A stretch of 64,000 nt of DNA from Brachycybe producta (taxonomy: Eukaryota; Arthropoda; Diplopoda; Playtdesmida; Andrognathidae). This document shows positions 19,552 to 61,945 of this stretch, piece after piece. The position numbers were made by a program, and so were the translations under genes. The notes under the pieces were generated by a model. That model saw nothing but the letters and a program-made list of their open reading frames with translations. It was not told the DNA's origin and ran no database searches. The stretch lies in contig JAUPFP010000008.1 in assembly GCA_036925085.1 (NCBI GenBank), forward strand, positions 4,397,277 through 4,461,276. Direction: 5' to 3'. How positions within the stretch are numbered: position 1 is the first letter of the stretch; each line of letters opens with the position of its first letter.

Positions 19552-21489
19552 ACACAATAAGGTTGAAGCAGCAGCAGTAACACACGGAAAAGAAGATTTG
19601 ATTCAACAAAATATAATAGAAAACGTTGTTCGGATTAAGAGAAATTCTTTCTGTTCTTCGGAATGTGTTTTTCTTTCTTTTGTGTTTGTTAGTAGTTTTA
19701 AGATTTTTGAGGTTCAATGGTGCTTAAATAAAGCAATACATTTTAACATCACTTTTTTTTGGGGGGGGGGGAGTGAGAGGCTAGTTTGAACAGGAGAAGA
19801 AAAAATAAGCTGGAAAGTTGTTGTATTATTATTTTGATGTTCATAAAAAACAATAACTTTTATTACATTTTGTTTTCTTTGTTTATTTGTTGTTCGAAAA
19901 CTGTTAGGTGTTGAAAAAATAAGTAAAGCAACACCTAACAATAATTTGAAAGAGGGGCAGAAATTAGTAAAAGAGAAAATTAAAATAAAGTAAAAAGAGA
20001 AAGAGGCGGAGCTAGAAAGAGAAACAATGAAAGAGAAGTAAAAAAGAGAAGAAAAAATGAGGAAATAAAAAATGGCGGGAAAGTAGTAGTAAAAGAGGGG
20101 GTGGATAAAGTATGAATGAATCACACCCACACACACACACTCATAGTAAACAGAGGCAAAAAAGGGAGAGGCTGAAAAAAGTAAAAGAAACCCACCCACC
20201 CATAAGAGAATGACGAAGCAAGAAGAAAGTCAAAGAAAGGGGGGAAACAAAAAAGAAACCCACCCACACAAGTAAAAAGTAATAAAAAGTTTTTAAAGAA
20301 AACAAGAGAGGGGGGAAATAGAAAGACTAAACCCACCCACACACACTTTAGAAGGGTGAGCCCAAATAAGTGTACCATGTTAAATAAAAACTTTTTTACA
20401 AAATTAAATGTAATTAAAGAATGAAAAGAGTGGAAAACATACTATAAAGTGTAATAGATAGATAGATGAAGTGGTTAATTAACCTGATATAATCTGATTA
20501 CCTAGTGGAGTGTAAAATAAGAGAAAAGTAAAGTTGAACAATGAAAAAGTTTAAATGTGACACTTAAAGAAGAAAAACATATGGTTTATACTTCATACTC
20601 ACACGGTAGAAGACCACCTGTTTTACAAATAATTATGACGTCATTATAGAAAAAAAAATAAAAAGAAAGAAGGGATGGAAAAAGTGTAACAAGATACTTT
20701 TTACCATACACTCTCTTCAATATGCAAAACAGCAAAGTAATAAAAAGTTTAAAAGAAAAAGTAAAGCACATAACAGGTTCTCAACACATTAAGAAAAGGG
20801 CCGTTAATAATATATAGAGTATATTGAAGACTATAGAGAGGAAACTTATGAATGAGTATAATGAAAAGAATGGAACAATATGTGAAGTCAAACATAACCC
20901 AAAAGAGGTACCGACAAGTAGCGAAAGAGTTGTATGATGTTAGGGTTCTCAACAGAGTAGGGGTAAAAGGGCCAAAATCGTATTTAAATAGAAATACATT
21001 TCGGAGGGCCTAGAAAACCAAATAAAGGAACATTGGGAATGTTAGTCATTCAAATGAAATGTTATGAGTTGCCGAAAACTAAAACTTTCGATGAAAAGTT
21101 AAAAGGTTAACTATACTAATTCATAGAAAATGACGGTTAGTGAAAATAACAGTATGTATCGACGATCGTAAAAAAATTTATAAAAAATCCAAATTGTAAT
21201 TTTACGACCGGATGCATATTAGGCAGATGTTCGTAGAAGAAGATCAAAAGCCAGTTGACCGATTGGTTATTTTAATTTTAGAAAATTAATTCTAACCAAT
21301 CAGAATACTTAAAATTCATTTCTGACTAAACAAGATGCGATGAACATCGTATTCTAGAGAGAGTCCTACATTGGAGTTCTAGAAGAGAGGACATATGTTA
21401 TAAATTTAGTAAAAAGAAAGAAGAAAGAACTTAGAAGAAATTTAGAGGATGAGACTTAGAAGAAATTTAAAGAATAGGACTTAGAAAAA

Positions 21490-21660
21490 GTTTAAAAGGA
21501 GACTTAGAGAATTTTTGTTTAAAAGGAGACTTAGAGAATTTTTGGTTAAAAGGAGACTTAGAGAATTTTTGGTTAAAAGGAGACTTAGAGAATTTTTGGT
21601 TAAAAGGAGACTTAGAGAATTTTTGGTTAAAAGGAGACTTAGAGAATTAGTGTTTAAAAG
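21490..21660 (+). repeat. 27-bp tandem repeat in 5' LTR, about 6 copies
   Basis: The unit AAAAGGAGACTTAGAGAATT plus TTTGGTT repeats about six times. Because 27 is divisible by three, one frame stays open and reads as a repeated KRRLREFLV peptide, but there is no ATG at its beginning and no gene context. The same array is at 39360-39530 in the 3' LTR. Confidence 0.9.
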
Positions 21661-21800
21661 TGGACTTAAAGAATGTTACAGAGTCCTACATTGGAGTTCT
21701 AGAAGAGAGGACATATGTTATAGATTTAGTAAAAAGAAAGAAGAAAGACCTTAGAAGAAATTTAGAGGATGAGACTTAGAAGAAATTTAAAGAATAGGAC

Positions 21801-22600
21801 TTAGAATTATTTTGAATTGAGTTTGTGAAGTCATTTAGACTTAGAATTATTTTGAATTGAGTTTGTGAAGTCATTTAGACTTAGAATTATTTTGAATTGA
21901 GTTTGTGAAGTCATTTGGACTTAGAATTATTTTGAATTGAGTTTGTGAAGTCATTTAGACTTAGAATTATTTTGAATTGAGTTTGTGAAGTCATTTGGAC
22001 TTAGAATTATTTTGAATTGAGTTTGTGAAGTCATTTGGACTTAGAATTATTTTGAATTGAGTTTGTGAAGTCATTTGGATTTAGAATTATTTTGAATTGA
22101 GTTTGTGAAGTCATTTGGACTTAGAATTATTTTGAATTGAGTTTGTGAAGTCATTTGGACTTAGAATTATTTTGAATTGAGTTTGTGAAGTCATTTAGAC
22201 TTAGAATTATTTTGAATTGAGTTTGTGAAGTCATTTGGATTTAGAATTATTTTGAATTGAGTTTGTGAAGTCATTTGGACTTAGAATTATTTTGAATTGA
22301 GTTTGTGAAGTCATTTGGATTTAGAATTATTTTGAATTGAGTTTGTGAAGTCATTTAGACTTAGAATTATTTTGAATTGAGTTTGTGAAGTCATTTGGAC
22401 TTAGAATTATTTTGAATTCAGTTTGTGAAGTCATTTAGACTTAGAATTATTTTGAATTGAGTTTGTGAAGTCATTTGGACTTAGAATTATTTTGAATTGA
22501 GTTTGTGAAGTCATTTAGACTTAGAATTATTTTGAATTGAGTTTGTGAAGTCATTTGGACTTAGAGTTGTTTTGAGTTGAGTTTGTGAAGTGTTTTGAGA
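21801..22600 (+). repeat. 40-bp minisatellite in 5' LTR, 20 copies
   Basis: Nineteen near-identical 40-bp units (TTAGAATTATTTTGAATTGA then GTTTGTGAAGTCATTTRGAY) plus one diverged terminal unit (22561-22600). Variation is almost confined to the last four bases (AGAC, GGAC or GGAT) and one GAATTCA variant. The unit order is the same in the 3' LTR (39671-40470), so both arrays were copied from one template at the last transposition. Confidence 0.97.
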
Positions 22601-22606
22601 AATAAA
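22601..22606 (+). terminator. AATAAA poly(A) signal in LTR
   Basis: A canonical AATAAA immediately after the 40-bp array; the 3' LTR copy at 40471-40476 would be the one used for 3' end formation. It places the R/U5 boundary within a few tens of bases downstream. Not proven from sequence alone. Confidence 0.5.
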
Positions 22607-22705
22607 CCTAGGAGTTGGTTTTTCATGTAATTTGGATTTTGAGTCTGAGACCAGGAAAGTGTTTTCACGAAGCTATAATTCTCCGAAGACAACAAGAAGC
22701 CATCT

Positions 22706-22714
22706 AAGGTAAGG
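22706..22714 (+). promoter_or_regulatory. Candidate 5' splice donor in U5
   Basis: AAG|GTAAGG (GT at 22709-22710) matches the metazoan donor consensus well and lies downstream of the poly(A) signal, in the part of the LTR transcribed as 5' leader. Matching acceptors lie just before the first ORF (24676) and before env (33664). A spliced env message is normal for retroviruses and errantiviruses; use of this donor is inferred. Confidence 0.5.
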
Positions 22715-22920
22715 TTAACAACTCTTGTTATCTTTATTAGGCCCAGTCCAAGAAAATTAAAAAATTACTACCACTCACTGATAAACTACAAAACCCATTC
22801 CCTACATAAGCCTTCATTGGCTGGGAGGGTCGAACCCTAAACCCAATAGGTACTATTTGGCTGAAAGGGGAATCACAGAACACCACTGTGATAGCCGTGA
22901 AAACGGAAACTTACAAAAAG

Positions 22921-22939
22921 TGGCGCAGTCGACAGGATT
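22921..22939 (+). other. Primer binding site, tRNA-Ser type
   Basis: TGGCGCAGTCGACAGGATT begins five bases after the LTR end. It is complementary to a tRNA 3' end with a CGACTGC acceptor strand, discriminator G and CCA, the pattern of tRNA-Ser and of Ty3-type elements known to use it. Primes minus-strand DNA synthesis. Confidence 0.8.
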
Positions 22940-24670: not shown

Positions 24671-24676
24671 TTCCAG
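24671..24676 (+). promoter_or_regulatory. Candidate splice acceptor before first ORF
   Basis: CTCTTTTCCAG followed four bases later by the ATG at 24680. The pyrimidine tract plus CAG and the position just upstream of an initiator suggest a real 3' splice site feeding the accessory-gene message. Confidence 0.55.
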
Positions 24677-24679
24677 GTT

Positions 24680-25099
24680 ATGGCCGAAGCACCAGAAGAC
24701 CGTGAACTGAACAATTTTAAACCAGTGTGCAGAGTTTCCCCTAGAATTATAACAGAAGAAGAGTACCGAGAGCGACGAGAAAGATTCATCGACGAGGCGG
24801 AATTAGCGTATCACTTACTCTTGGCTAACCTAAGACCGTTGGCGGGTTACCAGTCGGTACGATTTAGCTTGCCGTCTCCGGTGAGCCCAACACCGAGTTC
24901 AATACCAAGTCCGATACCAAGTCCGGTACATTTTTTGGAGAGTGGAGTGGCACAATTTTATCTTCACGGAACTCCAATCTTTAACGTGAGATCGGATCTT
25001 GCTGGTTTCATCGCACCTCCTTCGTCTCCCGTGGAAAGAGAACCACCGGAGCCACAGGACGAACGATTGGCAGACGACGGATTGCCATATCACGTTTAA
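24680..25099 (+). CDS. Element 1 accessory ORF A, 139 aa, unknown
   Basis: I do not recognise this protein. It starts at the first ATG after the candidate acceptor (context TTATGG) and is richer in G+C than the ORFs after it. The N-terminal half is charged (an E/R-rich stretch at about residues 31-45). Residues about 65-85 are an S/P/T-rich linker with repeated IPSP motifs, and the C-terminus is acidic and proline-rich (EREPPEPQDE). It has one cysteine and lacks the CP-x4-C module of the following ORFs. No signal peptide or membrane segment is visible. It could be a short leader protein or the first exon of a spliced product: a GTAAGG donor-like motif lies just after the stop (25114). Confidence 0.6.
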   Translation: MAEAPEDRELNNFKPVCRVSPRIITEEEYRERRERFIDEAELAYHLLLANLRPLAGYQSVRFSLPSPVSPTPSSIPSPIPSPVHFLESGVAQFYLHGTPIFNVRSDLAGFIAPPSSPVEREPPEPQDERLADDGLPYHV

Positions 25100-25135: not shown

Positions 25136-25375
25136 ATGGATGAGTGCATGTTGCAGGACATTTGCATATTACCCTGGTGCCCATTAAGACCAGAGTGTAA
25201 TATCATTGACTTGAGTGACATTGATGTTATTTTTGTATGTACTACACATTTGAGAACATTTGAGGGTGCCGAATATAATATTTGGATGAATGCTAAAGAA
25301 TTAATTGTTTCCGTTCACGATTTATGGCAGATATTAGATGGATATTCCACTGATTTTGTAGGATTTGAAATATGA
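25136..25375 (+). CDS. Cys-rich accessory ORF B (type 1), 79 aa
   Basis: First member of the small Cys/His family. The module is C15-P-x4-C21-x13-C35-x2-H38, followed by an aromatic residue three positions after the histidine and a helix-like tail ending near DGYS. It is closest to ORFs G and I: all share LPWCP[LI]R, an IID motif and EY..W after the histidine. The first ATG is 25136; an internal ATG at 25148 would give an N-terminus nearer to those of G and I. Its TGA stop overlaps the ATG of the next ORF (ATGA at 25372-25375). Zinc binding is inferred from residue spacing; no known family was recognised. Confidence 0.7.
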   Translation: MDECMLQDICILPWCPLRPECNIIDLSDIDVIFVCTTHLRTFEGAEYNIWMNAKELIVSVHDLWQILDGYSTDFVGFEI

Positions 25376-25671
25376 GTTTTGTGGATGAATACGAGGTATC
25401 CTCAACCAATGATTTTGTATGCCCTTATAGTAATATTTGTTTCAGAGCTCCAGATTTCTCAGACAATTCATATATGTGGAAGTGTATGAGCCACAATTAC
25501 CTGTTTGATATTAGAGATTACCCATTTGTTGCACTAGGAAGACCTGGATCAAACAATGTAGAAGCAAGTATAGAAATAGTGAATTTTGTGAATATATTGG
25601 ACAATTTATCATACATCCAAATCTGGTTGAAATCAAAAACTTTTTCAATAGCAGGAATTGAGAAGAAGTAA
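25372..25671 (+). CDS. Cys-rich accessory ORF C (type 2), 99 aa
   Basis: Starts inside the stop of ORF B (ATGA), an arrangement suited to termination-reinitiation. Module C17-P-x4-C23-x14-C38-x2-H41. It resembles ORF J: both are 99 aa, have W-K-C before the last Cys, [DK]xRxYP after the histidine, then A[LF]GR and a similar helical tail. Cytosolic or nuclear protein by composition, with no signal peptide. Function unknown; likely a zinc-binding adaptor or nucleic-acid binder (inference). Confidence 0.7.
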   Translation: MSFVDEYEVSSTNDFVCPYSNICFRAPDFSDNSYMWKCMSHNYLFDIRDYPFVALGRPGSNNVEASIEIVNFVNILDNLSYIQIWLKSKTFSIAGIEKK

Positions 25672-25676
25672 AGATT

Positions 25677-25880
25677 ATGTGTAGAAAAAAAAAATCTTTA
25701 GTAAGTATAACTTGTCCATTTAGTTTAAATTGTGTTTTTATTATAAAGAAAAGAGATAATTTGGTGAAGTGTGTTTGTCATCTTAATCATTTTCAAACTG
25801 AATACATTCAAAGTAATCGTGACTTGAAAGATAAGTTGGAAATTTTATCAGTAAAAAAGCATGAACTTAGAAGACACTAG
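25677..25880 (+). CDS. Cys-rich accessory ORF D (type 3), 67 aa
   Basis: ATG at 25677, five bases after the stop of ORF C. Module C13-P-x4-C19-x12-C32-x2-H35 with an extra Cys (C-V-C-H). Basic N-terminus (RKKK) and a short charged tail. Closest to ORF E in length and spacing. The last 20 bases overlap the start of ORF E in another frame. The small size alone would be unconvincing; the conserved module and position support it. Confidence 0.62.
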   Translation: MCRKKKSLVSITCPFSLNCVFIIKKRDNLVKCVCHLNHFQTEYIQSNRDLKDKLEILSVKKHELRRH

Positions 25881-26070
25881 TAGGAACATACCACAGTGCC
25901 CTATAGGTCCTTATTGCATTGTAAGATTTTTTCGAGAAAGTGGTCGAGTTAAGTGTTTTGTACATGATACCTGGTATCAGACAGAAAAAATCCCAGAGAA
26001 AATTATAATTAAAGAGACAAGTAATTTGAAGTTGAAGGTAATAAAGGAAGAGGAAAAGAAAGAAAGTTAA
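25861..26070 (+). CDS. Cys-rich accessory ORF E (type 3), 69 aa
   Basis: ATG at 25861 lies within the end of ORF D (20-nt overlap, different frame). Module C13-P-x4-C19-x12-C32-x2-H35, with CPIGPYC shared almost exactly with ORF F (CPIGPDC) and GR[VI] before the third Cys. The C-terminus is Lys/Glu-rich (KEEEKKES). It matches the first half of ORF F, so it may be a truncated two-module paralogue. Function unknown. Confidence 0.65.
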   Translation: MNLEDTSRNIPQCPIGPYCIVRFFRESGRVKCFVHDTWYQTEKIPEKIIIKETSNLKLKVIKEEEKKES

Positions 26071-26080
26071 GATATTTAGT

Positions 26081-26440
26081 ATGAGTGAGGATTATCAAAC
26101 GAATAGGTTACAGTGCCCCATAGGACCAGATTGTATTACTAAGTTTCATCGATCTATAGGACGGATTGAATGCCTCACCCATAAATTCTGGTATTTACCT
26201 GCAGATTACGTATACAGGTGTGCTAATCAAGGTTATTTCCCGATACAAGCTGTTGTTGATTGTACTGATCAAGACACTGAGGAAGACATTCGAAGAATAA
26301 TTATAAGTAGATGGGAATCGTGTCCTTATGCTAGGAATTGTGCCTTTGTAGCCATCACACAAAACGAAGCTCCAAGGGAATTCCAGTGCATTATACACGG
26401 AACAGTAATTAATACTCTTTTTAACGTAATCCATATGTAA
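26081..26440 (+). CDS. Cys-rich accessory ORF F (type 4, two modules), 119 aa
   Basis: Two copies of the module: C12-P-x4-C18-x12-C31-x2-H34 and C81-P-x4-C87-x15-C103-x2-H106, separated by a linker with two further cysteines (YRC and VDC). ORF H has the same length, module spacing and linker cysteines, so the two are paralogues. Starts 10 nt after ORF E ends and stops 7 nt before ORF G. The linker Cys pair could complete a third metal site (inference). Confidence 0.72.
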   Translation: MSEDYQTNRLQCPIGPDCITKFHRSIGRIECLTHKFWYLPADYVYRCANQGYFPIQAVVDCTDQDTEEDIRRIIISRWESCPYARNCAFVAITQNEAPREFQCIIHGTVINTLFNVIHM

Positions 26441-26447
26441 AGAGGGT

Positions 26448-26672
26448 ATGGACTTAAATGTATTACCATGGTGTCCTATAAGACTTAATTGTGTAATAAT
26501 TGATAGAAGAAACATAGATAACACATATGCTTGCCTTACACACCAAAGAATTTTTCAGATAGAAGAATACGAAAATTGGCTTCAAGTTAGAACATTATTG
26601 ACAACACTAGGTGAACTATTGCAAGATATATATAGCTTTTTCATAAGAATAGAAGAAGAAGAAAGTGTATAA
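26448..26672 (+). CDS. Cys-rich accessory ORF G (type 1), 74 aa
   Basis: Module C9-P-x4-C15-x13-C29-x2-H32 followed by RIF and EEYENW, then a leucine-rich helical tail and an acidic C-terminus. A paralogue of B and I across its whole length, with conservation both in the module and in the tail (L..LGELLQ versus L..LNELLH). No export signal. Confidence 0.7.
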   Translation: MDLNVLPWCPIRLNCVIIDRRNIDNTYACLTHQRIFQIEEYENWLQVRTLLTTLGELLQDIYSFFIRIEEEESV

Positions 26673-26731
26673 AGAATTCCAGTTATAGACAGAAAATATT
26701 ATGGTTTATTAATGAGTGATATTTAAAGGGT

Positions 26732-27091
26732 ATGGATTTAAGCATACAAAGGAAAAGGGAACGAGATGCCAATAGATGTCCTTTTGGGAAAAGTTGTAGT
26801 ATAGTACACGAAGATTTTCAAGAATTTGTAACATGCGAAGTCCACAACGTAAATTTTGCATTTCCTGAGTATCTATACATGTGTGGTATAAATCCTAATG
26901 TAAACAGAGTAATTTTTGAGACTAAGTGTAAAAGTCCCTTAGAAGAACTTCAGTTATTAACAGATAGAATTGGTAATCATTGTCCATTGCATGACGAATG
27001 CTTTTTTGTCTTAATTTCACCAAAAACTTGGCCTAAACAGTATCAATGTGCAGTTCATCAAAAGATATTTAATGAACATTTGGGAGTATAA
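26732..27091 (+). CDS. Cys-rich accessory ORF H (type 4, two modules), 119 aa
   Basis: Basic N-terminus (QRKRERDANR), then C16-P-x4-C22-x12-C35-x2-H38, a linker with Cys in Y[LV]Y-x-C and a second linker Cys, then C84-P-x4-C90-x15-C106-x2-H109. Same length and layout as ORF F but clearly diverged in sequence, which argues that both modules and the linker cysteines are under constraint. 59 nt follow ORF G. Confidence 0.72.
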   Translation: MDLSIQRKRERDANRCPFGKSCSIVHEDFQEFVTCEVHNVNFAFPEYLYMCGINPNVNRVIFETKCKSPLEELQLLTDRIGNHCPLHDECFFVLISPKTWPKQYQCAVHQKIFNEHLGV

Positions 27092-27133
27092 AAGATAAAG
27101 GAAAAAAGCGTGTTTGTTTGAATTCTTAATAAA

Positions 27134-27370
27134 ATGAGTGTTGATTTAGAATTATTACCATGGTGTCCCTTAAGGTTTAGTTGTGATATTATTGATTTAA
27201 CAGAAATAGAGAACATTTATGTGTGTCTCACACATCATAGAGCTTTTCAAGTAGAAGAATATGAACTTTGGCTTCGTGTTAAACAGTTGTTAACCTCATT
27301 AAATGAATTATTGCATGAATTAGATGAATATTCCATAGAGTCAGAAATAGATATTGACCGATTTAGATAA
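27134..27370 (+). CDS. Cys-rich accessory ORF I (type 1), 78 aa
   Basis: Module C11-P-x4-C17-x13-C31-x2-H34, with LPWCPLR and CxTHxRxF shared with ORFs B and G. The tail (EEYELWLRVKQLL and onward) is predicted helical by its heptad-like leucines. ATG at 27134 follows an A-rich stretch (AATAAAATG). Acidic C-terminus. Function unknown. Confidence 0.7.
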   Translation: MSVDLELLPWCPLRFSCDIIDLTEIENIYVCLTHHRAFQVEEYELWLRVKQLLTSLNELLHELDEYSIESEIDIDRFR

Positions 27371-27403
27371 AGAAGTTTTATTGTCAGAAAATAATTTAGA
27401 ATA

Positions 27404-27703
27404 ATGAGCGAGAATTTTAGTGATCAAGACAAGGTTTATAGGTGTCCTGAACTAAAAAATTGTTTCAAAACACAGTGTCACCATCATAGACAAGATTATA
27501 GGTGGAAGTGTGTTACACATTATAGGCATTTTGATAAAAGAAATTACCCAGAGATAGCATTTGGGAGAGTTGCATGTTCATATGAAAAAGCAGTTAGAGA
27601 ATTGATAGATTTTAATGAGTATTTGTCCCGCTTAGGTCACCCCGCAAAAACTCAGGAAAGAATAGATTTTTTCGTACAAAGAGACTTAGAACGGGAAGAT
27701 TAA
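27404..27703 (+). CDS. Cys-rich accessory ORF J (type 2), 99 aa
   Basis: Last of the array, 31 nt before gag. Module C14-P-x4-C20-x15-C36-x2-H39, with an extra CHHH cluster inside the spacer that could join metal binding. Paralogue of ORF C (W-K-C-[MV]-[ST]-H, RxYP, FGR/LGR and the following helix). The C-terminus is charged (RDLERED). Not related to gag or to its CCHC knuckles. Confidence 0.7.
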   Translation: MSENFSDQDKVYRCPELKNCFKTQCHHHRQDYRWKCVTHYRHFDKRNYPEIAFGRVACSYEKAVRELIDFNEYLSRLGHPAKTQERIDFFVQRDLERED

Positions 27704-27734: not shown

Positions 27735-28946
27735 ATGGAAGAAGACAAAATGGCTTCCAATGATGGAGAAGTCGGTAACTCCAATGGTGGTGCAGAAGGT
27801 AACGCAAATACGAATCTTAACATGCATCACACAGGGTTAATACCATATTTTTCTGGGGATGAAAAAGGACCATCCGCCAAAGAGTTTTTTGAGCAAATAG
27901 AAGGTGTAGCTAATTTAGCAAGATGGACAGAAGAGTTCCAGATCATTCTGATAAAATCCAAGTGCAGAGGTCCTGCTGCGGAATTTTTCAGAGATCATCC
28001 AAGCATTCGACAGATAAACTCAATTGAAGAGTTAAAAGCGTTGATGATACAAAGATTCGAGCCAATCGAACCTAAGTTGGTATCAATGCAGAAGTTTTTA
28101 GAAGAAAAACAGAGCAACACGGAAAGCGCTATTGAGTATATTTCCAGAGTAAAGACCAGAGGAAGAGCCTTCACCGAGGAAAATCCCAGTGCCGACCAGA
28201 TAGCAGTCAGAGATGGGATGATACAAAATCAAATCATCAAAGGATTGCATCCAAGAATAAAAAGATTTGTACTTTCACGGAATCCTGCTGATTTGAACGA
28301 AACAATCAGAATCATTCTAGCGGAAGAAGAAAATGAGAAGTTGGTTCATGCGAAATATGGAATAAATGTAATAGAGACGATTACTGAAGAAAAGGAGATG
28401 CTGAAGAAATTTGAAGAGAAATTAAAGCAATTGGATGCTCAGAGAACTAAAGACATTGCAGTATTGGACCAGAAGTTTCAAGAAAAAATAAAGGCTCAAG
28501 AGAATGCCAAGAAAGAGGAAGGAAGTAATCAAAGGATGGATAAACGAAATGTTGAATGTTTCAGATGTCACAAGAGAGGACATTATGCTAATGAGTGTTG
28601 GTCAAAACCAACAATTCCACAGCAATGGAGAAATCCGAGTTACCCACAACCAAATTGGAATCAGCCACAAGCTTTTCAGCCTAATGGTAGAGCTCCTAAT
28701 TTTGGAAATACACAGAGAAATGTGCAGATTGAAAGGCAGAGAGGCCAAGGATGTTATAATTGTGGGAAAATGGGTCATTATGCAAAGGATTGTAGAATGA
28801 AACAAGTCCAAAGACAAAGTGAACCCATAGTATGTTTTAAATGTGGAAAGCAAGGTCATTTTGCAAATGTTTGTAGATTAGGGGCAAGACAGAACCCAGG
28901 GAATCGGGTTCAAAGAAATCAAGCAAATGGTAGGGCGGAAAACTAG
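27735..28946 (+). CDS. gag: Element 1 Gag, 403 aa
   Basis: Structural polyprotein that forms the particle and binds genomic RNA. Residues about 35-210 resemble the Ty3-type retrotransposon capsid region (FSGDE near the start, then W..EF and a FE...EKQ stretch). Residues about 215-260 form a charged coiled-coil-like segment. Three CCHC zinc knuckles (C-x2-C-x4-H-x4-C) lie at about 275-288, 340-353 and 367-380, with Q/P/N-rich spacers. Start chosen at the first ATG after ORF J. It ends in TAG at 28944-28946; the pol frame (-1) is open from 28934, giving a short overlap. Confidence 0.95.
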   Translation: MEEDKMASNDGEVGNSNGGAEGNANTNLNMHHTGLIPYFSGDEKGPSAKEFFEQIEGVANLARWTEEFQIILIKSKCRGPAAEFFRDHPSIRQINSIEELKALMIQRFEPIEPKLVSMQKFLEEKQSNTESAIEYISRVKTRGRAFTEENPSADQIAVRDGMIQNQIIKGLHPRIKRFVLSRNPADLNETIRIILAEEENEKLVHAKYGINVIETITEEKEMLKKFEEKLKQLDAQRTKDIAVLDQKFQEKIKAQENAKKEEGSNQRMDKRNVECFRCHKRGHYANECWSKPTIPQQWRNPSYPQPNWNQPQAFQPNGRAPNFGNTQRNVQIERQRGQGCYNCGKMGHYAKDCRMKQVQRQSEPIVCFKCGKQGHFANVCRLGARQNPGNRVQRNQANGRAEN

Positions 28947-28984: not shown

Positions 28985-31900
28985 ATGTATGAAAACCGCG
29001 TCACATTAAACATTCTGAATGACACAACATGTCCTATCTTTTTAGCTCAGTCAAAAAACAATCTGATAAAGATTCTATACGACACAGGAGCAGGAATATC
29101 GATAATTTCCAAATCCTTATTTGAAAAGATAAAAGGACGGAAAGCACGAGACATAAAGCCTATCACTGATCAAGCTAAGGTTATAATTACCACAGCGAAT
29201 GGTACACCGTTTCGTACAAAGGGATTATATGAAATACCCGTACGTATTACAGCAGAGAAAGTGGAAAAGGTTCCTTTATACGTGAGTGCAGAAGATTTGC
29301 CAAAGAAATATCAGATGATTTTCGGCATAGATGTGATAAAGCAGTTAGGATTAACATATGAACCCTTGCTTGATGTAATTGGTTATAATGGGATGAAAAT
29401 TAAGACAAGAAGTTTAGAGAAAAATGAAATGATTAATATGTTGCAGAAAAAGGGAGATAAAGAATGGATATTAGAAGTAGTAAGTAAAACGGAGACAGAG
29501 AATCAGAATCAATTAAGAAAATTTTTGGAGAAAAATGATGATATATTTGCATGTTCACTTAAAGAACTGAAACCGACACCTGTTGTTGAACAAGAAATCC
29601 ACATGGTGGATCAAGTTCCAGTTTTTATACGACCATACAAGTTGCCACAGAAATCAGAAGAAGTTATGAAAGAGAAAATTGATGAGTTATTAGATGCAGG
29701 AATAATTAGACCATCGTTAAGTCCTTACTCAGCACCGTGCATGCTTATAGGAAAACCAGATGGGAGTCAAAGATTAGTTGTTGATTATCGAGCATTGAAT
29801 TTAAAGGTAGTTAGTGATAAATATCCATTACCAGAGCTTTTGGGAGTAAGTAATCAATTAGGAGAAGCTGTTTATTTTTCTACTTTAGACATGGCAAGTG
29901 GTTTTTACCAGATTCCCATAACAGAAGAAGATAAAGCAAAAACAGGTTTTAGTACACCTTTTGGACACTATGAATTCAACAGATGTCCAATGGGACTAAA
30001 AACATCTCCAAGTGTATATCAGAGACTTATGGATAATGTATTAGGTGATTTGAAAGGGAAAATTTGTTTTGTTTACATGGATGATATTATTGTATACAGT
30101 AAAACTATAGAGGAACATTATGAAAGGTTAAATTTAGTGTTTGAGCGACTTAGAAATGCAAACTTAAAAGCAAAACCAACAAAATGTTTGTTCCTACAGA
30201 AGGAAATAAACTATCTAGGACATACATTTACACAAGGGAAATTCCAACCAGGTGGAAAGAAAGTAGAAGCAGTAGAAAATTTTCCGAGACCAACAAGTGT
30301 CAAGAAAATACAAAGTTTTGTGGGATTAGTAAACTTTTATAGAAAATTTATTCCAAATTGTGCAAGTTTAGCAGGTCCATTAACAAAGTTGTTAAGTAAA
30401 GATACTCCATTTCTTTGGACAAAAGACTGTGAAGAATCTTTTCAGAAATTAAAAGGATGTTTGATTACATATCCAGTTTTGATAATGCCAAATTTTAAAA
30501 GACCATTTTATTTGACTACGGATGCAAGTAATGAAGCAATCGGGGCAATCCTCGAACAAAAGATTGACGGTCAATTACACCCAATATCTTATGCGAGTAG
30601 GAAGCTCACCAAATCAGAACAAAATTATTCTACGACATGGAAAGAGGCATTAGCATGTGTTTATGGTGTAAATTATTTTCGATATTACTTGATGGGAAGA
30701 AAGTTTACTCTTATCACAGATCATCAACCATTAAAATACTTGATGACTATGAAAAAAGATAAAGCTATGTTAACTAGATGGGCATTACAGTTACAACAAT
30801 ATGATTTTGAGGTTTTATATAGAAAAGGTAAAGAGAATACTAATGCAGATGCTTTGAGTCGAAATCCTGTAGAAAGCAAAGAATTAAATGTGTTAAATGA
30901 ACAAGAAACTTGGGAAGAACATGAGGTTGCTAAAGATCAAGAAAATTGCGAAGAATTGAAATCTTTCATGGAATGTTTATATGGTTGTCCAGTAGATAAA
31001 AAGGTAAAAGAAAAAGTTGATAAGTTGGGTTTAGAATTAAATACAAAAGGTTGGTTAGTAAAAAGATCCGAAAATAAATTAAGAACTGTAGTCCCTTTGA
31101 GTAAAAGAAATTATGTGTTGAAAATGTGTCATGATAATATTACAGCAGGTCATTTTGGTATTGAAAAAACAACAAGCAAAGTTGCAGACAGATTTTATTG
31201 GGAAACTTTAAAGAAAGATGTGAAACAATATTGTGAAGCTTGTGTATCGTGTAATCAGAAAAAGATTCCACATGGGAAAAGTCCATTATGTAAGTTCCCA
31301 GCACCATCCAAACCATTTGAAAGAATTGGAATGGATATACTAGGTCCTTTACCTACTACACAGAATGGAAATAAATACATTGTAGTTATTTGTGATTATC
31401 TAACAAGATACCCAGAAGCATTTGCTATTCCAGATCAGAAAGCTGAAACCATTGCAAATTTGTTAGTAAGAGAAATTATTTCACGGTATGGTAGTCCCCA
31501 GACTCTAATAACAGACAGAGGTGCAAACTTTATGTCTGAACTTATGAAAAGTCTGTGTGAGACATTCGGAATTAAAAAGATTTTTACGTCAGCATATCAC
31601 CCGCAAACAGATGGTTTAGTTGAGAGATTCAACAGGACACTAACAACAATGTTATCACATTATGTTGATAGTTCACAAAGAAATTGGGATGAGGAACTTC
31701 CATTAGTATTGATGGCATATCGTAGTGCGATGCATTCAAGCACTAAGGAGACACCTTATTTTTTATTGTTTGGACAGGATATGAATTTACCATTTGATTT
31801 AATAGGAGATGAACCTCAGCCAGTGTACAACACTGAAGACTATGGAAAGGTAGTGGCAAATAGGATGCAGAAGATACATGATATAGCAAAAGAGAGTTTA

Positions 31901-32797
31901 GAAAAATCAGCTGAAAATCAAATTAGATATCAAGGAAAGAAAAGAAAAAATAAAGGAATACAAGTAGGTGAAAAAGTATATTTGAATGTACCACAAGTAG
32001 CACAAGGTAAAACAAAAAAATTAGCGAAGTTGAACAAAGGTCCTTATCGAGTCATTAGACAAACATCACCTGTTAATTTTGAGATAAAGCACATGTATAG
32101 ACACAAAGATGTACAAATAGTTCATGAAGAGAGATTAAGAGTAGTAAAAGGAAAAAATCCATGGGAAAAGATTGAGGACTGTACAGAAAAGGTGAAAGAA
32201 CCTAAAGAACAAAGCAGAAAAGGCAAAAGGCCTAGTGAATCGAGTAATTCAAGTTCAGATGAAGATGATGAAGACAATGCAGATAAAATTGATTATTGTT
32301 GTGAAAAGGTACCTACAGTAAATACTAAGACACCTAAGGGAATTATTCGGAACACAGAAGCCGTACCCAGTACTAGTGGTTATAATTTACGAAGTAAAGG
32401 TTCCATACAGTTTGCTACGCCATTACCAGTAAGAACAAGAAGAATTACACCTAGGACAGAAGTATTACCTAGACTACCAGATCCACCTAGAGTTGAACCA
32501 GGCGAATCTGAAGATGAAGGAGATTTGAGTTTAGCAAGGTTACGTAAAAAGTTGCAAGAGATATTGAATAAAGGAAATTCTAGGGATACCCAAGAGGAAG
32601 ATAGACATCCTCCAAGTATTTCGGAATCCCAAGAAATTAGTGCATCAGAAGAAGAAATTCAGAGTGAACAGGATTCTATAGTTGAAGAAGATACTAGAAA
32701 AACTGGTCAAGAAGAGCCAGAAGATAATGTAGCAGGACAATTGTTAGACAAGATGTTTAAATTAGTAAGTGTGATAGAAAGAATGAGTAAGAAATAA
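28985..32797 (+). CDS. pol: Element 1 Pol: PR-RT-RNase H-integrase, 1270 aa
   Basis: Order and motifs: aspartic protease with DTGAG at residue 33; reverse transcriptase with YMDD at 364-367; RNase H with TDAS (Asp at about 513); integrase with an HHCC zinc domain starting at about H716 and D784, D844, E880 (35 residues between the last two). A GPY-type module lies at about 1018. No chromodomain is visible; residues after about 1060 are acidic, Ser/Glu-rich and low in complexity. The first ATG is 28985, but the frame is open from 28934 and overlaps the gag end, so it may be made by -1 frameshifting (AAAAC before TAG) or by reinitiation. Intact, without stops. Confidence 0.96.
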   Translation: MYENRVTLNILNDTTCPIFLAQSKNNLIKILYDTGAGISIISKSLFEKIKGRKARDIKPITDQAKVIITTANGTPFRTKGLYEIPVRITAEKVEKVPLYVSAEDLPKKYQMIFGIDVIKQLGLTYEPLLDVIGYNGMKIKTRSLEKNEMINMLQKKGDKEWILEVVSKTETENQNQLRKFLEKNDDIFACSLKELKPTPVVEQEIHMVDQVPVFIRPYKLPQKSEEVMKEKIDELLDAGIIRPSLSPYSAPCMLIGKPDGSQRLVVDYRALNLKVVSDKYPLPELLGVSNQLGEAVYFSTLDMASGFYQIPITEEDKAKTGFSTPFGHYEFNRCPMGLKTSPSVYQRLMDNVLGDLKGKICFVYMDDIIVYSKTIEEHYERLNLVFERLRNANLKAKPTKCLFLQKEINYLGHTFTQGKFQPGGKKVEAVENFPRPTSVKKIQSFVGLVNFYRKFIPNCASLAGPLTKLLSKDTPFLWTKDCEESFQKLKGCLITYPVLIMPNFKRPFYLTTDASNEAIGAILEQKIDGQLHPISYASRKLTKSEQNYSTTWKEALACVYGVNYFRYYLMGRKFTLITDHQPLKYLMTMKKDKAMLTRWALQLQQYDFEVLYRKGKENTNADALSRNPVESKELNVLNEQETWEEHEVAKDQENCEELKSFMECLYGCPVDKKVKEKVDKLGLELNTKGWLVKRSENKLRTVVPLSKRNYVLKMCHDNITAGHFGIEKTTSKVADRFYWETLKKDVKQYCEACVSCNQKKIPHGKSPLCKFPAPSKPFERIGMDILGPLPTTQNGNKYIVVICDYLTRYPEAFAIPDQKAETIANLLVREIISRYGSPQTLITDRGANFMSELMKSLCETFGIKKIFTSAYHPQTDGLVERFNRTLTTMLSHYVDSSQRNWDEELPLVLMAYRSAMHSSTKETPYFLLFGQDMNLPFDLIGDEPQPVYNTEDYGKVVANRMQKIHDIAKESLEKSAENQIRYQGKKRKNKGIQVGEKVYLNVPQVAQGKTKKLAKLNKGPYRVIRQTSPVNFEIKHMYRHKDVQIVHEERLRVVKGKNPWEKIEDCTEKVKEPKEQSRKGKRPSESSNSSSDEDDEDNADKIDYCCEKVPTVNTKTPKGIIRNTEAVPSTSGYNLRSKGSIQFATPLPVRTRRITPRTEVLPRLPDPPRVEPGESEDEGDLSLARLRKKLQEILNKGNSRDTQEEDRHPPSISESQEISASEEEIQSEQDSIVEEDTRKTGQEEPEDNVAGQLLDKMFKLVSVIERMSKK

Positions 32798-33677: not shown

Positions 33678-36371
33678 ATGGCGTTCGATAAGATGATTGG
33701 AATTTTGCTGTTGTGGACGATAGCAGTCACGGGACAGGAATATTACGACATCGAAATTTGTAATTGGAAGAAAGGTGAAAAGGTTTGCAAAGAAGCGATT
33801 ATAAACAGTCCGGAACCGTATTCGGATAAAATGTGCCCGCAAAATGGTTGCAGAGAATGTATGGTTAAATGGGTTACAAAATTAATAAGTAAAGAGGGAA
33901 AAAGCGAATCAGCTGTAGAATTTCAAGTTAAGCAAACAGAAGAAACAAATGGTAACAGTGAAATGTATAAGTGCCAAAATAGAGGAATGCCATGTAGTTG
34001 TGCTAAAAATGATACTTGTTCAGGAACAGAACAATATTGCAAAAGCACAAGAAAATGCGCAAGTAAGAAGACAGAATGTCATTGCGAAATAGTTCGAGCA
34101 AATACAAGATTAATACATGTGAACAAAAAGGGTATTGAATCAGAAGGATTTGAAATAATATCTTATAGAGAATGTTACTTCAACACATCTGAGTTAAAAT
34201 ATGGAAGGAAAAGAAAACGTATTGGGCGAAATTTATTGGGAATGGATACGTTCAAAATTGAGGAAGGGGTAAACTTCATCAAATTTAATGATCCCGTCAT
34301 AACAGTAAGTGCAGAAGGCACAGTTATAATTAGAAAAGACGGAGTAGAAAGAAGTTTACATGTGGGAAAAAAGAAACAGGTTATTATAAATCCTGAATTT
34401 GGTATGGAATCTGGTACCCTTCATATCATCTTCATTTCCACAGAAGGTCATATGATGGAAGGAAAGTTCCATATTGAAGGTAAAGATATATGTCACAGAT
34501 TAAAATGTGTTTTATGTTATGAGTTTGTCTATAATATTCAATGTATGCCAACATATCTAACATATGCTATAATCATATTATTGATGTTAATGACTAGTAT
34601 TGTTGTTTTATATATCAAAGCAGTGTTGAAATCATTATGGAATTTATTATCTTGGTTTATTATGTGTTCATTGTTTATATATCGTATGGGAAAAAAGTGT
34701 TTAAAGGTATCTATGGTTATTGGTGTCGCTAGTGGTCGATCCGTAAAAAATAAAGTCAAAAAGGTTAAAGATAAGTATGATGATTTGGAAACAGGTACTT
34801 TATCAAGAAATAGTATCCTGAGTCCAACAGTCATTACTATAATAATTTTGATAGGATTTTTATTAAGTTTGGTTTCAAGTGCACAAGCGAAATGCACAGA
34901 ACATAAAATGATAAAATCACAAATTACTGAATGTCAAGAAACGAATCAGGGACAAGAATGTTCCCTAGCCACATCAATACAGGTAACTTTAACCAATTTA
35001 GAGTATACTGCATGTTTATGGCTAACTGATCATCAAGAAAATTATGTTGCAAGTGTTGAAATAAGATTTGAAAGTGTAAATTGTGAATGGCGAACGGAAA
35101 GATTATACTATACATTTCCAACCGAACTATTCACTTTAAATCAAATTGCATGTCCTCAAAATAAGTATTGTGGATGGGGAGATCATTGTCACCCAGATTA
35201 TAAATTTGAATTGTTAACTAAAGAAGCTTTAGATTGGCCAGGAGTAACAGATTGTTTTCCAGGTGATTCTGGAACTTCATGTTTTATAGCCAGCAGACAA
35301 CCATGTCATCATTTCCGATGGTATTTGAAACCCGATTATAAAAATGTATTTGAAGTAAGAAAAATTTCTAGTATGAAGTGTCACCCTAAAATAATATTGA
35401 CTATTAAGAATAATGATACTGAGACAAAATATGCAATCCGGTCGGCAAAAGAAGTGCCCGATCAAATATATATTGAAGTAGTTGGAGTTTTTGATCAAGC
35501 AACTGATATTATTTCCAAGCATTTGATAATCAAACATGGGAATGGGTCAGAAGCTTATTTAGATACAGCTGCAGAATTCTCAAGACCCTATAGAGGCCAA
35601 ATTGGGGATGTACAAGCTGGTGAAGCCATATCAAAGGATTTTTTATTTGATAAAAGAATGGTAGAATGTAGTTTCTTTGAGTCACGAATGACTTGTACGA
35701 AACAACAATCATATCTAGAATTAATGATGCAAAGTAAAAGGAATCTAATACCTATGACATTAACGAATCATAAAGTGTTTGTTGACAAAGAAGGCCGATT
35801 GAAATCTTCTTTAATTGTATCTAGCCCAGCAGTAGTACATTTAATAGTAGAAAACTATCAGGTCATATTAAGTACAGTTCGAGTGTGTCCCCGTATATTA
35901 AGAATAGTAGCTCATCAGGGGTGTTATTCTTGCTCAATATTAGCAGTAGTGCAAATTGAAGCAATTAGCACATGTTTTCCAGGAACAGTAACAATTACCT
36001 TTGAAGACATACCTATGAGTACCAGAGCTCTCACTCTCACTACTAGTGCCAAAATATATGATATACAGATACAGATTAGTAAAAAATGTATTTCCGATAA
36101 AGTGTGTTTACAATCGCGAGTTGGAGTGTCGTGCGAGAAATTTGAAGGATGCTTCGAAGAACCACAGTTGAATCTTCAAAGAACTTTCGATGCTCGTGTT
36201 ACATCTGTTGGAGGATATTCTCCAGGCGACGAATTTACGTTCTCATCAATCTTTCCAAACTTTTTGGGAAGCTTGGGATCTATGTTCTACGCTCCGTTCA
36301 TGATCGGACTAAGTATATTAGGATCATGTTTTGTGTTTTCATGTGTGCTCAGCATGATGCGAATGAGATAA
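33678..36371 (+). CDS. env: Element 1 envelope-like glycoprotein precursor (Gn/Gc layout), 897 aa
   Basis: Predicted type I membrane polyprotein. Residues 1-19 are a signal peptide. A Cys-rich ectodomain follows, with N-glycosylation sites and a polybasic furin-like stretch (GRKRKR, about 175-180). Membrane segments lie at about 293-315 and 320-338, then a basic tail. A second hydrophobic segment (about 382-404) ends in AQA, like an internal signal-peptidase site. A second Cys-rich ectodomain includes a Trp/Gly/Cys motif (CGWGDHC, about 498-504), and a final membrane anchor (about 868-893) is followed by four residues. The layout matches bunyaviral, especially phlebovirus-like, Gn-Gc precursors with a class II fusion protein, a type of env known from a few LTR elements such as some nematode BEL elements. 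The homology is inferred from architecture, not a search. The reading frame is intact. Confidence 0.8.
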   Translation: MAFDKMIGILLLWTIAVTGQEYYDIEICNWKKGEKVCKEAIINSPEPYSDKMCPQNGCRECMVKWVTKLISKEGKSESAVEFQVKQTEETNGNSEMYKCQNRGMPCSCAKNDTCSGTEQYCKSTRKCASKKTECHCEIVRANTRLIHVNKKGIESEGFEIISYRECYFNTSELKYGRKRKRIGRNLLGMDTFKIEEGVNFIKFNDPVITVSAEGTVIIRKDGVERSLHVGKKKQVIINPEFGMESGTLHIIFISTEGHMMEGKFHIEGKDICHRLKCVLCYEFVYNIQCMPTYLTYAIIILLMLMTSIVVLYIKAVLKSLWNLLSWFIMCSLFIYRMGKKCLKVSMVIGVASGRSVKNKVKKVKDKYDDLETGTLSRNSILSPTVITIIILIGFLLSLVSSAQAKCTEHKMIKSQITECQETNQGQECSLATSIQVTLTNLEYTACLWLTDHQENYVASVEIRFESVNCEWRTERLYYTFPTELFTLNQIACPQNKYCGWGDHCHPDYKFELLTKEALDWPGVTDCFPGDSGTSCFIASRQPCHHFRWYLKPDYKNVFEVRKISSMKCHPKIILTIKNNDTETKYAIRSAKEVPDQIYIEVVGVFDQATDIISKHLIIKHGNGSEAYLDTAAEFSRPYRGQIGDVQAGEAISKDFLFDKRMVECSFFESRMTCTKQQSYLELMMQSKRNLIPMTLTNHKVFVDKEGRLKSSLIVSSPAVVHLIVENYQVILSTVRVCPRILRIVAHQGCYSCSILAVVQIEAISTCFPGTVTITFEDIPMSTRALTLTTSAKIYDIQIQISKKCISDKVCLQSRVGVSCEKFEGCFEEPQLNLQRTFDARVTSVGGYSPGDEFTFSSIFPNFLGSLGSMFYAPFMIGLSILGSCFVFSCVLSMMRMR

Positions 36372-36935
36372 CTGTACTCATCTTTCACTATGAAACAACA
36401 GTGAAAGGGAGAAAATTATTTTCTCAATATTGCATCTATAATATACATCGAGAAGAATTATCTACAACAACGATACTGTAGAAGTTGTGACATTTTACCA
36501 GGTGATAAAATCTGTGAAAATGTACCAAAAAAGACTTCTAAAACAGTTTAAAGAAAGACATCAAAGAAAAGATCAGCCCATGACATCACACAAAAAGATG
36601 AACATGGATGATTTCTAAACATCATAAAGGTTGGAAAGAAGGAAAAAATTCAAGACATCAGAGATGAAAAGAATCAAGACATCAATGAAAAGAGAATTCA
36701 AGACTTCTGAGAATAATTAAGAGAAGACAGCAGATGGACAGCGTGGAAGACCACATGAATCCATATGATTAAAGGCATCACGAAGATATGAAGATGACCA
36801 AGTGTGATGGCACGAAAGACTGAATTTCTGAACTTATTTGTGAGTAGAGACTTAATGGAAATAGTGTTTTTAGATGTGAAATTTAAGGTGTTATTAGGTT
36901 AGATTTGATGGTTAGGATGTAACATTTTTGAGAGT

Positions 36936-37145
36936 GAAGAGTGAAGGGAAAACATAGAATAATTTGAAAATAGAATTGGTACAGTAGAAAAATGAAGAAA
37001 TTAATGTCCAATGAAGAGTGAAGGGAAAACATAGAATAATTTGAAAATAGAATTGGTACAGTAGAAAAATGAAGAAATTAATGTCCAATGAAGAGTGAAG
37101 AGAAAACATAGAATAATTTGAAAATAGAATTGGTACAGTAAAGAA
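36936..37145 (+). repeat. 77-bp tandem repeat, about 2.7 copies
   Basis: GAAGAGTGAAGGGAAAACAT starts units at 36936, 37013 and 37090 with almost no divergence; the third is partial and then drifts. Located in the 3' UTR. Confidence 0.92.
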
Positions 37146-37771: not shown

Positions 37772-40700
37772 TGTTAGGTGTTGAAAAAATAAGTAAAGCA
37801 ACACCTAACAATAATTTGAAAGAGGGGCAGAAATTAGTAAAAGAGAAAATTAAAATAAAGTAAAAAGAGAAAGAGGCGGAGCTAGAAAGAGAAACAATGA
37901 AAGAGAAGTAAAAAAGAGAAGAAAAAATGAGGAAATAAAAAATGGCGGGAAAGTAGTAGTAAAAGAGGGGGTGGATAAAGTATGAATGAATCACACCCAC
38001 ACACACACACTCATAGTAAACAGAGGCAAAAAAGGGAGAGGCTGAAAAAAGTAAAAGAAACCCACCCACCCATAAGAGAATGACGAAGCAAGAAGAAAGT
38101 CAAAGAAAGGGGGGAAACAAAAAAGAAACCCACCCACACAAGTAAAAAGTAATAAAAAGTTTTTAAAGAAAACAAGAGAGGGGGGAAATAGAAAGACTAA
38201 ACCCACCCACACACACTTTAGAAGGGTGAGCCCAAATAAGTGTACCATGTTAAATAAAAACTTTTTTACAAAATTAAATGTAATTAAAGAATGAAAAGAG
38301 TGGAAAACATACTATAAAGTGTAATAGATAGATAGATGAAGTGGTTAATTAACCTGATATAATCTGATTACCTAGTGGAGTGTAAAATAAGAGAAAAGTA
38401 AAGTTGAACAATGAAAAAGTTTAAATGTGACACTTAAAGAAGAAAAACATATGGTTTATACTTCATACTCACACGGTAGAAGACCACCTGTTTTACAAAT
38501 AATTATGACGTCATTATAGAAAAAAAAATAAAAAGAAAGAAGGGATGGAAAAAGTGTAACAAGATACTTTTTACCATACACTCTCTTCAATATGCAAAAC
38601 AGCAAAGTAATAAAAAGTTTAAAAGAAAAAGTAAAGCACATAACAGGTTCTCAACACATTAAGAAAAGGGCCGTTAATAATATATAGAGTATATTGAAGA
38701 CTATAGAGAGGAAACTTATGAATGAGTATAATGAAAAGAATGGAACAATATGTGAAGTCAAACATAACCCAAAAGAGGTACCGACAAGTAGCGAAAGAGT
38801 TGTATGATGTTAGGGTTCTCAACAGAGTAGGGGTAAAAGGGCCAAAATCGTATTTAAATAGAAATACATTTCGGAGGGCCTAGAAAACCAAATAAAGGAA
38901 CATTGGGAATGTTAGTCATTCAAATGAAATGTTATGAGTTGCCGAAAACTAAAACTTTCGATGAAAAGTTAAAAGGTTAACTATACTAATTCATAGAAAA
39001 TGACGGTTAGTGAAAATAACAGTATGTATCGACGATCGTAAAAAAATTTATAAAAAATCCAAATTGTAATTTTACGACCGGATGCATATTAGGCAGATGT
39101 TCGTAGAAGAAGATCAAAAGCCAGTTGACCGATTGGTTATTTTAATTTTAGAAAATTAATTCTAACCAATCAGAATACTTAAAATTCATTTCTGACTAAA
39201 CAAGATGCGATGAACATCGTATTCTAGAGAGAGTCCTACATTGGAGTTCTAGAAGAGAGGACATATGTTATAAATTTAGTAAAAAGAAAGAAGAAAGAAC
39301 TTAGAAGAAATTTAGAGGATGAGACTTAGAAGAAATTTAAAGAATAGGACTTAGAAAAAGTTTAAAAGGAGACTTAGAGAATTTTTGTTTAAAAGGAGAC
39401 TTAGAGAATTTTTGGTTAAAAGGAGACTTAGAGAATTTTTGGTTAAAAGGAGACTTAGAGAATTTTTGGTTAAAAGGAGACTTAGAGAATTTTTGGTTAA
39501 AAGGAGACTTAGAGAATTAGTGTTTAAAAGTGGACTTAAAGAATGTTACAGAGTCCTACATTGGAGTTCTAGAAGAGAGGACATATGTTATAGATTTAGT
39601 AAAAAGAAAGAAGAAAGACCTTAGAAGAAATTTAGAGGATGAGACTTAGAAGAAATTTAAAGAATAGGACTTAGAATTATTTTGAATTGAGTTTGTGAAG
39701 TCATTTAGACTTAGAATTATTTTGAATTGAGTTTGTGAAGTCATTTAGACTTAGAATTATTTTGAATTGAGTTTGTGAAGTCATTTGGACTTAGAATTAT
39801 TTTGAATTGAGTTTGTGAAGTCATTTAGACTTAGAATTATTTTGAATTGAGTTTGTGAAGTCATTTGGACTTAGAATTATTTTGAATTGAGTTTGTGAAG
39901 TCATTTGGACTTAGAATTATTTTGAATTGAGTTTGTGAAGTCATTTGGATTTAGAATTATTTTGAATTGAGTTTGTGAAGTCATTTGGACTTAGAATTAT
40001 TTTGAATTGAGTTTGTGAAGTCATTTGGACTTAGAATTATTTTGAATTGAGTTTGTGAAGTCATTTAGACTTAGAATTATTTTGAATTGAGTTTGTGAAG
40101 TCATTTGGATTTAGAATTATTTTGAATTGAGTTTGTGAAGTCATTTGGACTTAGAATTATTTTGAATTGAGTTTGTGAAGTCATTTGGATTTAGAATTAT
40201 TTTGAATTGAGTTTGTGAAGTCATTTAGACTTAGAATTATTTTGAATTGAGTTTGTGAAGTCATTTGGACTTAGAATTATTTTGAATTCAGTTTGTGAAG
40301 TCATTTAGACTTAGAATTATTTTGAATTGAGTTTGTGAAGTCATTTGGACTTAGAATTATTTTGAATTGAGTTTGTGAAGTCATTTAGACTTAGAATTAT
40401 TTTGAATTGAGTTTGTGAAGTCATTTGGACTTAGAGTTGTTTTGAGTTGAGTTTGTGAAGTGTTTTGAGAAATAAACCTAGGAGTTGGTTTTTCATGTAA
40501 TTTGGATTTTGAGTCTGAGACCAGGAAAGTGTTTTCACGAAGCTATAATTCTCCGAAGACAACAAGAAGCCATCTAAGGTAAGGTTAACAACTCTTGTTA
40601 TCTTTATTAGGCCCAGTCCAAGAAAATTAAAAAATTACTACCACTCACTGATAAACTACAAAACCCATTCCCTACATAAGCCTTCATTGGCTGGGAGGGT

Positions 40701-40785
40701 CGAACCCTAAACCCAATAGGTACTATTTGGCTGAAAGGGGAATCACAGAACACCACTGTGATAGCCGTGAAAACGGAAACTTACA
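37772..40785 (+). repeat. Element 1 3' LTR
   Basis: Same length and, by eye, the same sequence as 19902-22915 (offset 17,870), including the order of variants in the 40-bp array (39671-40470) and the 27-bp array (39360-39530). The AATAAA at 40471 is the likely poly(A) signal. Followed by AAAC, the target duplication. Confidence 0.96.
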
Positions 40786-57820: not shown

Positions 57821-57833
57821 TGCTTCATCGAAT

Positions 57834-61943: not shown

Positions 61944-61945
61944 AA

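Follow-up and report, generated by a model that had tools for sequence, protein, structure and literature searches.

What are nine small open reading frames (ORFs), all built on one cysteine-containing module, doing between the leader and the gag gene of a retrotransposon? The array was analyzed in a 64,000-nucleotide stretch of the Brachycybe producta assembly GCA_036925085.1 (contig JAUPFP010000008.1, positions 4,397,277 to 4,461,276, forward strand), hereafter the window, where it belongs to element 1 (19902-40785, + strand), with the order leader, ORF0, ORFs 1-9, gag, pol, env. The answer that we favour, with confidence only a little better than even, is that the nine ORFs are accessory proteins of this retrovirus-like Ty3-type element: a selected set of putative zinc modules, translated by reinitiation and directed at the host, the likeliest target being silencing by PIWI-interacting RNAs (piRNAs).

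The array and its module

The nine ORFs follow one another on the + strand, starting with the ATG at 25136 and ending with the stop at 27703, between leader/ORF0 and gag, and 2412 of these 2568 bases are coding. They hold 11 strict C-P-x4-C-x12-15-C-x2-H modules in which only C, P, C, C and H are invariant; F or Y stands at H+4 in 10 of the 11, whereas the second ORF5 module has V there. The earlier note had described 11 such modules, ten with an aromatic residue after the histidine, as an expanded family carried by a Ty3-type element: motif count and alignment confirm the description, and nine ORFs with 11 modules bear out the expansion. The strict motif has 11 matches in the six frames of the window, every one inside the array, while with the residues of the nine proteins shuffled, 20,000 times each, the motif turned up 0.00045 times on average and never more than once. 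The relaxed form C-x5-C...C-x2-H, without the proline, adds three scattered matches in the window. The 11 modules should not be counted as 11 separate instances, since ORF1, ORF6 and ORF8 are closely related paralogues (35-51% identity).

The genome (295 Mb, 442 contigs) contains 41 matches to a 570-base probe, of which 17, the window included, are at 98-100% over the full probe length; the array was followed in the 16 copies outside the window (L009-L024). ORF1 (25136..25375) carries a W-type module (LPWCP) in a 79-residue frame kept in 15 of the 16 copies, and ORF2 (25372..25671) an F-type module (CPYSNICFRAP) in a frame of 96 or 99 residues kept in 14. In ORF3 (25677..25880; P-type) a run of A near the start differs between copies: 14 could not be followed, one is without the ATG and one has a 67-residue frame. 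ORF4 (25861..26070; I-type, CPIGPYC), ORF5 (26081..26440; two modules, I-type and d-type), ORF7 (26732..27091; two modules, x-type and d-type) and ORF8 (27134..27370; W-type) are open in all 16. ORF6 (26448..26672; W-type) has 73-74 residues and ORF9 (27404..27703; F-type) 99 residues in 13 copies each. All nine are on the + strand.

Among the distinct variants of ORFs 1-9 in the 17 copies, 27 are synonymous and 57 replacement, against a neutral expectation of 81% replacements (ratio of replacement to synonymous variation, pN/pS, 0.49; binomial p=0.0026). ORFs 1-9 are under purifying selection as a set, with pN/pS of 0.12 in ORF4, 0.23 in ORF1, 0.27 in ORF7, 0.42 in ORF2 and 0.51 in ORF5. Pairwise dN/dS, the corresponding ratio between copies, is 0.23 for 14 near copies and 0.29 for up to 9 older copies, several of them broken (4-8 usable per ORF); ORF0 is included in both values and the pairs are not independent. 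The earlier note had argued for selection on the protein, and had named dN/dS near 1 and frequent stops in sister copies as signs to the contrary. These signs were looked for and do not characterize the set, given the open frames in 16 copies and the pN/pS of 0.49; the claim holds for the set, unevenly by ORF.

Searches of Pfam with ORFs 1-9 gave no family at its cut-off (lowest E 0.04), PHROGs one weak match only (ORF1, E 0.015), and module profiles against PDB sequences no relative, with at best E 0.36 for alignment A3 and nothing up to 10 for alignment A4. Nulls from protein databases were given no weight, as Gag likewise matched nothing there, and the libraries searched for the module cover animal transposons poorly. 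The Gag CCHC knuckle, C-x2-C-x4-H-x4-C, is a small zinc motif of retroelements. The module is also a small, putatively zinc-binding motif of a retroelement, but with the spacing C-x5-C-x12-15-C-x2-H, and no knuckle family appears in the Pfam list of the array ORFs. The CCCH finger C-x8-C-x5-C-x3-H was likewise rejected on spacing, Nab2-type matches occurring only in ORF7 and below cut-off (E 0.11 and 4.4), as was the CHHC finger C-x5-H-x9-H-x3-C, with no Pfam zf-U11-48K match. By spacing, the module is thus distinct from both the knuckle and the CCCH finger, as first proposed; what had been called new-looking is new relative to the libraries searched, in which it looks like an apparently undescribed unit.

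The AlphaFold model of ORF8 (mean predicted local distance difference test score, pLDDT, 82.6; residues 11-50 at 86-95) is a confident strand-strand-strand-helix, or beta-beta-beta-alpha, with a helical tail, and strand-strand-strand-helix is also found for the first module of ORF5 (mean pLDDT 62). The module is predicted to be a small beta-beta-beta-alpha unit, with the cysteines of CP-x4-C and the C-x2-H pair clasping one zinc, followed by a type-specific tail. With four conserved residues of ligand type and a confident, compact model, it is probably zinc-binding.

One of the closest known arrangements is that of the MDG1 group (Drosophila 412 and kin), in which two ORFs, sORF1 and sORF2, precede gag and peptides have been detected from the region, according to the sections consulted of the source (PMC11952523). 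Like the nine ORFs, these are small accessory ORFs on the element's own strand, upstream of gag and with a low replacement rate. They differ in being two, a predicted helix-turn-helix and a membrane fusion-type protein, with no CP-x4-C module mentioned in those sections (PMC11952523), whereas element 1 has nine ORFs of one zinc-type family plus env. None of the nine starts with MG, as the N-myristoylation start MGxxxS/T of sORF2 does; two known sORF2 members are also described as lacking it (PMC11952523). Against this precedent of two pre-gag ORFs, the accessory ORFs of element 1 are unusually many, as had been claimed.

Sister elements and the slot before gag

The Gag family of the window element is called A, and the other Gag families have further letters. 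The genome search with ORF8 gave 103 matches at E up to 10, and that with ORF5 96; the description of sister families rests on part of these. Five more Gag families have the module before gag, in one to nine copies: B (L037) has nine in an array reaching gag, C (L039, L040) seven up to gag, one of them with CP-x3-C, D (L071) seven, with L044 as a decayed relative, K (L056) two and J (L055) one. The order of types before gag is similar in A, B, C and D, and module types are common to Gag families 57-67% identical to the window Gag. A tree of 37 modules clusters by types W, F, P, I, d and x and not by elements; with 4 of 34 inner branches starred, it is taken as a pattern and not as resolved branching. 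Judged by sequence, there is one module family, with about six types recurring in several Gag families of the genome. The matching module sets of sister elements suggest that they form a toolkit with which to manage the host cell.

A wider picture comes from eight stretches, each of 3.8-3.9 kb, that lie in front of other Gags: two have modules (L055, L056), two have one GTSF1-like ORF each and no module (L053, L054), and in four the module is absent (L050, L051, L052, L057). In a Gag tree of 16 rows, A, B, C, D and K are joined with F and G (support 87/94, unstarred), which have no module within the upstream stretch read; beyond this group come J with E, then H, I, M and N. In this tree 6 of 13 inner branches are starred, and K and G are long rows of uncertain position. 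One copy pair of family B gave a replacement ratio of 0.33, one module-free ORF being pooled in, and one pair of family C gave 0.17 with gag, Bcl-2 and a module-free ORF counted in. Restricted to its six module ORFs, the family C value is about 0.42, from only 14 changes. Many module matches, intact and decayed and mostly on the plus strand, lie at about 6-14 Mb of contig C1, a concentration that may mark a silencing cluster or a region without recombination.

Other proteins share the slot. Among its modules family C has a 157-residue Bcl-2 homologue (L039:2205-2675, minus strand; also L040), with Bcl-2/Bcl-xL as its best PDB match (0.0026) and 43% identity over 126 residues to a Bcl-2 ORF carried by a different mobile element, L049. 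A later ORF of L049 matches Pfam RNA_helicase best (2.6e-7), adenovirus IVa2 just above cut-off (1.4e-4) and poxvirus A32 below it, and we take it to be a packaging ATPase of Maverick/Polinton type. Bcl-2 genes on DNA-virus-like elements were seen at L048:1917-2408, L049:1860-2330 and further places. As ten places, one of which was read, score equally at 44.1 bits, a recent burst of Bcl-2-carrying elements is likely.

Families H and I have one ORF directly before gag, 39% identical between the two. GTSF1-like ORFs in this position (L053:3330-3788, +; L054:130-543, -) have a CHHC-like finger and an EDWD motif. Mouse GTSF1 (6x46) is the sole PDB match of the family H protein at E up to 10 (E 1.3e-5), in two stretches of 1.5 and 0.011 each: the CHHC-like finger, plus PPPIEDWDKEIQEQ against PPSDEDWDKDLWEQ. 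The protein has 47 genome matches, and at least 18 GTSF1-like places are followed by a Gag match no more than about 500 bases downstream, among the matches listed. Conserved tryptophans in the central region of GTSF1 bind PIWI proteins, whose cleavage GTSF1 accelerates (PMC9385479, in the sections consulted). Families B and C also have a module-free ERDWDLQ ORF and, in ORF0, a CP-x4-C...H-x3-C stretch alike between the two; the window ORF0 has no similarity to that of family B.

Possible roles of the module proteins

Retroelements are silenced by piRNAs, and few proteins of animal retroelements are known to counter silencing. As the corresponding slot of sister elements is occupied by a GTSF1-like protein or a Bcl-2 homologue, a host-directed and likely counter-silencing role is proposed for the array. 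The roles that the earlier note had suggested (counter-defence, RNA handling, transcription control) stay conjectural, these slot neighbours giving them indirect support. Homologous module proteins, selected as a set and located together, are encoded head to tail before gag; each module would be the small zinc-clasped unit predicted above, with a tail specific to its type; translation would proceed from a polycistronic RNA, by reinitiation across short gaps and overlaps; and the proteins may be host-directed binders or decoys. That piRNA silencing is their likeliest target is the weakest step of this scheme.

The layout bears on translation. Inter-ORF gaps in families A, B and C range from -74 to 93 nucleotides, an ATGA stop-start overlap joins ORF1 to ORF2 in family A and a to b in family C (by coordinates also in L042), and A or G stands at -3 in 8 of 10 starts (ORFs 1-9 and gag). 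The leader (22919-24679) contains 26 ATGs. A putative splice acceptor, CTCTTTTCCAG (24675..24676, +; by eye), lies 3 nucleotides before ORF0; family B has TTTGCAG immediately before the ORF0 ATG, and family C no comparably clear acceptor there. From this we infer a spliced RNA starting at ORF0 and read by reinitiation. For an animal RNA, ten ORFs packed so tightly ahead of gag are a remarkable many-gene arrangement. In Drosophila MDG1 elements, the RNA over the two pre-gag ORFs and gag was observed unspliced, according to the sections consulted (PMC11952523).

Several observations weigh against a host-directed set of zinc proteins. In recent copies there is little constraint on ORF8 (pN/pS 0.82) or on ORF6 and ORF9 (0.72), and ORF3, with 0 synonymous and 5 replacement variants, is unconstrained when taken alone. 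No homologue of known function was detected for the module ORFs in the libraries searched, and the second module of the ORF5 model has no helix after it. The function proposed rests on the slot neighbours. Among these, the family C Bcl-2 homologue is below the Pfam cut-off (6.3e-5) and the family H GTSF1-like protein has no Pfam CHHC model match. No GTSF1-like or Bcl-2 ORF was seen among the ORFs of the window array, and in + frames of at least 40 residues the window element has no [EDR][DE]W[DE] or [ED]W[DE] except an FDWEE stretch in the leader.

The alternative that survives best, although we consider it rather unlikely, is that the proteins serve the element itself, their zinc modules binding its own RNA for export, packaging or many-ORF translation. 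The P-type ORFs are indeed basic (isoelectric points 9.7, 9.8 and 9.0 in families A, B and C), as is ORF4 (8.5). On unspliced RNA, ten ORFs with short gaps and ATGA overlaps stand ahead of gag, and because they do, gag translation needs help unless gag has its own spliced RNA. In caulimoviruses a transactivator lets many ORFs of a polycistronic RNA be translated; the array resembles them, in layout only, by its head-to-tail ORFs with short gaps on a reverse-transcribing element. However, the acidic W-type ORFs of families A and C (4.1-4.6) and the F-type ORFs (4.3 to 7.7) are unlike typical RNA binders, one transactivator would suffice where nine diverged proteins are many, and the slot neighbours look like host proteins.

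It is improbable, and clearly more so, that the modules derive from captured GTSF1-type CHHC fingers by a shift of the third ligand (H-x3-C to C-x2-H). Modules and GTSF1/Asterix fingers (6x46; sections consulted of PMC9385479 and PMC9539491) have in common a CP-x4-[C/H] start and the spacing from second ligand to next cysteine (13 in host GTSF1 fingers, 12-15 in modules). In outgroup elements the slot holds a GTSF1-like ORF, and a pooled seven-finger profile outscored all 150 column permutations in both of the controls. Permutations were nevertheless as good in 7 of 120 with host fingers alone and in 12 of 120 with element fingers alone, and the HHalign probability is only 59%. The ligands are C-C-C-H in the modules and C-H-H-C in GTSF1, the window element is without the EDW motif, and the predicted beta-beta-beta-alpha topology may differ from that of CHHC fingers, described as C2H2-like (PMC9539491, in the sections consulted). 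We hold equally doubtful the wider scenario of a retroelement lineage that captured a GTSF1-type PIWI cofactor before gag and expanded it to up to eleven derived modules as decoys or poisons of PIWI silencing, with an anti-apoptotic Bcl-2 in one branch.

Structural or particle components in several variants would fit the position next to gag and the helical tail of the ORF8 model, but are very unlikely: no module is present in the 3.8-3.9 kb upstream of the related Gags E, F and G, so that particles, if those elements are active, can probably form without it. Drifting, functionless remnants can be nearly dismissed, since replacement variants are depleted and module types persist across Gag families at that 57-67% identity, even though frameshifts or stops occur in ORF3 and in some copies of ORF6 and ORF9.

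Accessory proteins directed at the host thus stay our preferred explanation. The accessory gene set is diversified and under selection, exists in recent near-identical genomic copies, and has relatives with a PIWI-cofactor look-alike and a Bcl-2 in that slot. This makes counter-silencing genes on animal retroelements a testable question, and such small proteins should express easily.

The host element and its surroundings

Element 1 is a young, intact-looking, retrovirus-like Ty3-type element with a phlebovirus-type env. Its 5' long terminal repeat (LTR; 19902..22915, +) has the form TG...CA, with ends TGTT...TTACA, and the 3' LTR (37772..40785, +) is the same 3-kb sequence, a 3017-bp block being 100% identical between 19902-22918 and 37772-40788. 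A 4-bp target duplication, AAAC, flanks the element on both sides (judged by eye). Directly after the 5' LTR lies a putative primer-binding site, TGGCGCAGTCGACAGGAT (22920..22937, +; by eye), presumably of the tRNA-Ser type. ORF0 (24680..25099, +) encodes 139 residues, proline-rich and without module. The gag gene (27735..28946, +; 403 residues) has CCHC knuckles, with Pfam zf-CCHC at 5.2e-14 and Retrotrans_gag (6.4e-4) below its cut-off, and pol (28985..32797, +) has reverse transcriptase, RNase H and integrase above the Pfam cut-off and protease below. The LTRs, the short target duplication, the primer-like site, gag and the pol order protease-reverse transcriptase-RNase H-integrase are those of Ty3-type elements (Metaviridae).

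The env gene (33678..36371, +) is of the phlebovirus GN-GC type (Pfam Phlebovirus_G2 5.6e-30, above cut-off; G1 2.7e-5, below), with an acceptor-like TTATTTCAG shortly upstream, at about 33664 (by eye). Atlas virus, an endogenous virus of a nematode whose Env is of phlebovirus type, likewise combines a retrovirus-like element with a GN-GC envelope gene. It differs in its hookworm origin, and a module array is not mentioned in the sections consulted (PMC9094657); the two are likened by description only.

Both LTRs hold a 40-bp unit repeated about 20 times (20 in the 5' LTR; 21797-22591 and 39667-40461), with an adjoining 27-bp array. Further tandem repeats are of 121 bp at 33013-33286, in the pol/env interval, and of 77 bp at 36935-37172, 3' of env. 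Another Ty3-type element lies on the minus strand at 52644-62634, with identical 689-bp terminal repeats and pol at 55019-57820. Copies of a roughly 94-bp dispersed repeat, 79-85% similar to one another, occur at 322-415, 6100-6193 and 62848-62941, and near it a longer inverted match joins 189-371 to 62778-62960. Elsewhere in the assembly, contig C442 looks mitochondrial. The mitochondrial cox1 match has an in-frame TGA and adjoins a cox2-like frame, features that suggest an arthropod host; likely nuclear copies of cox1 are at C1:12697416 and C17:4027703-4029047.

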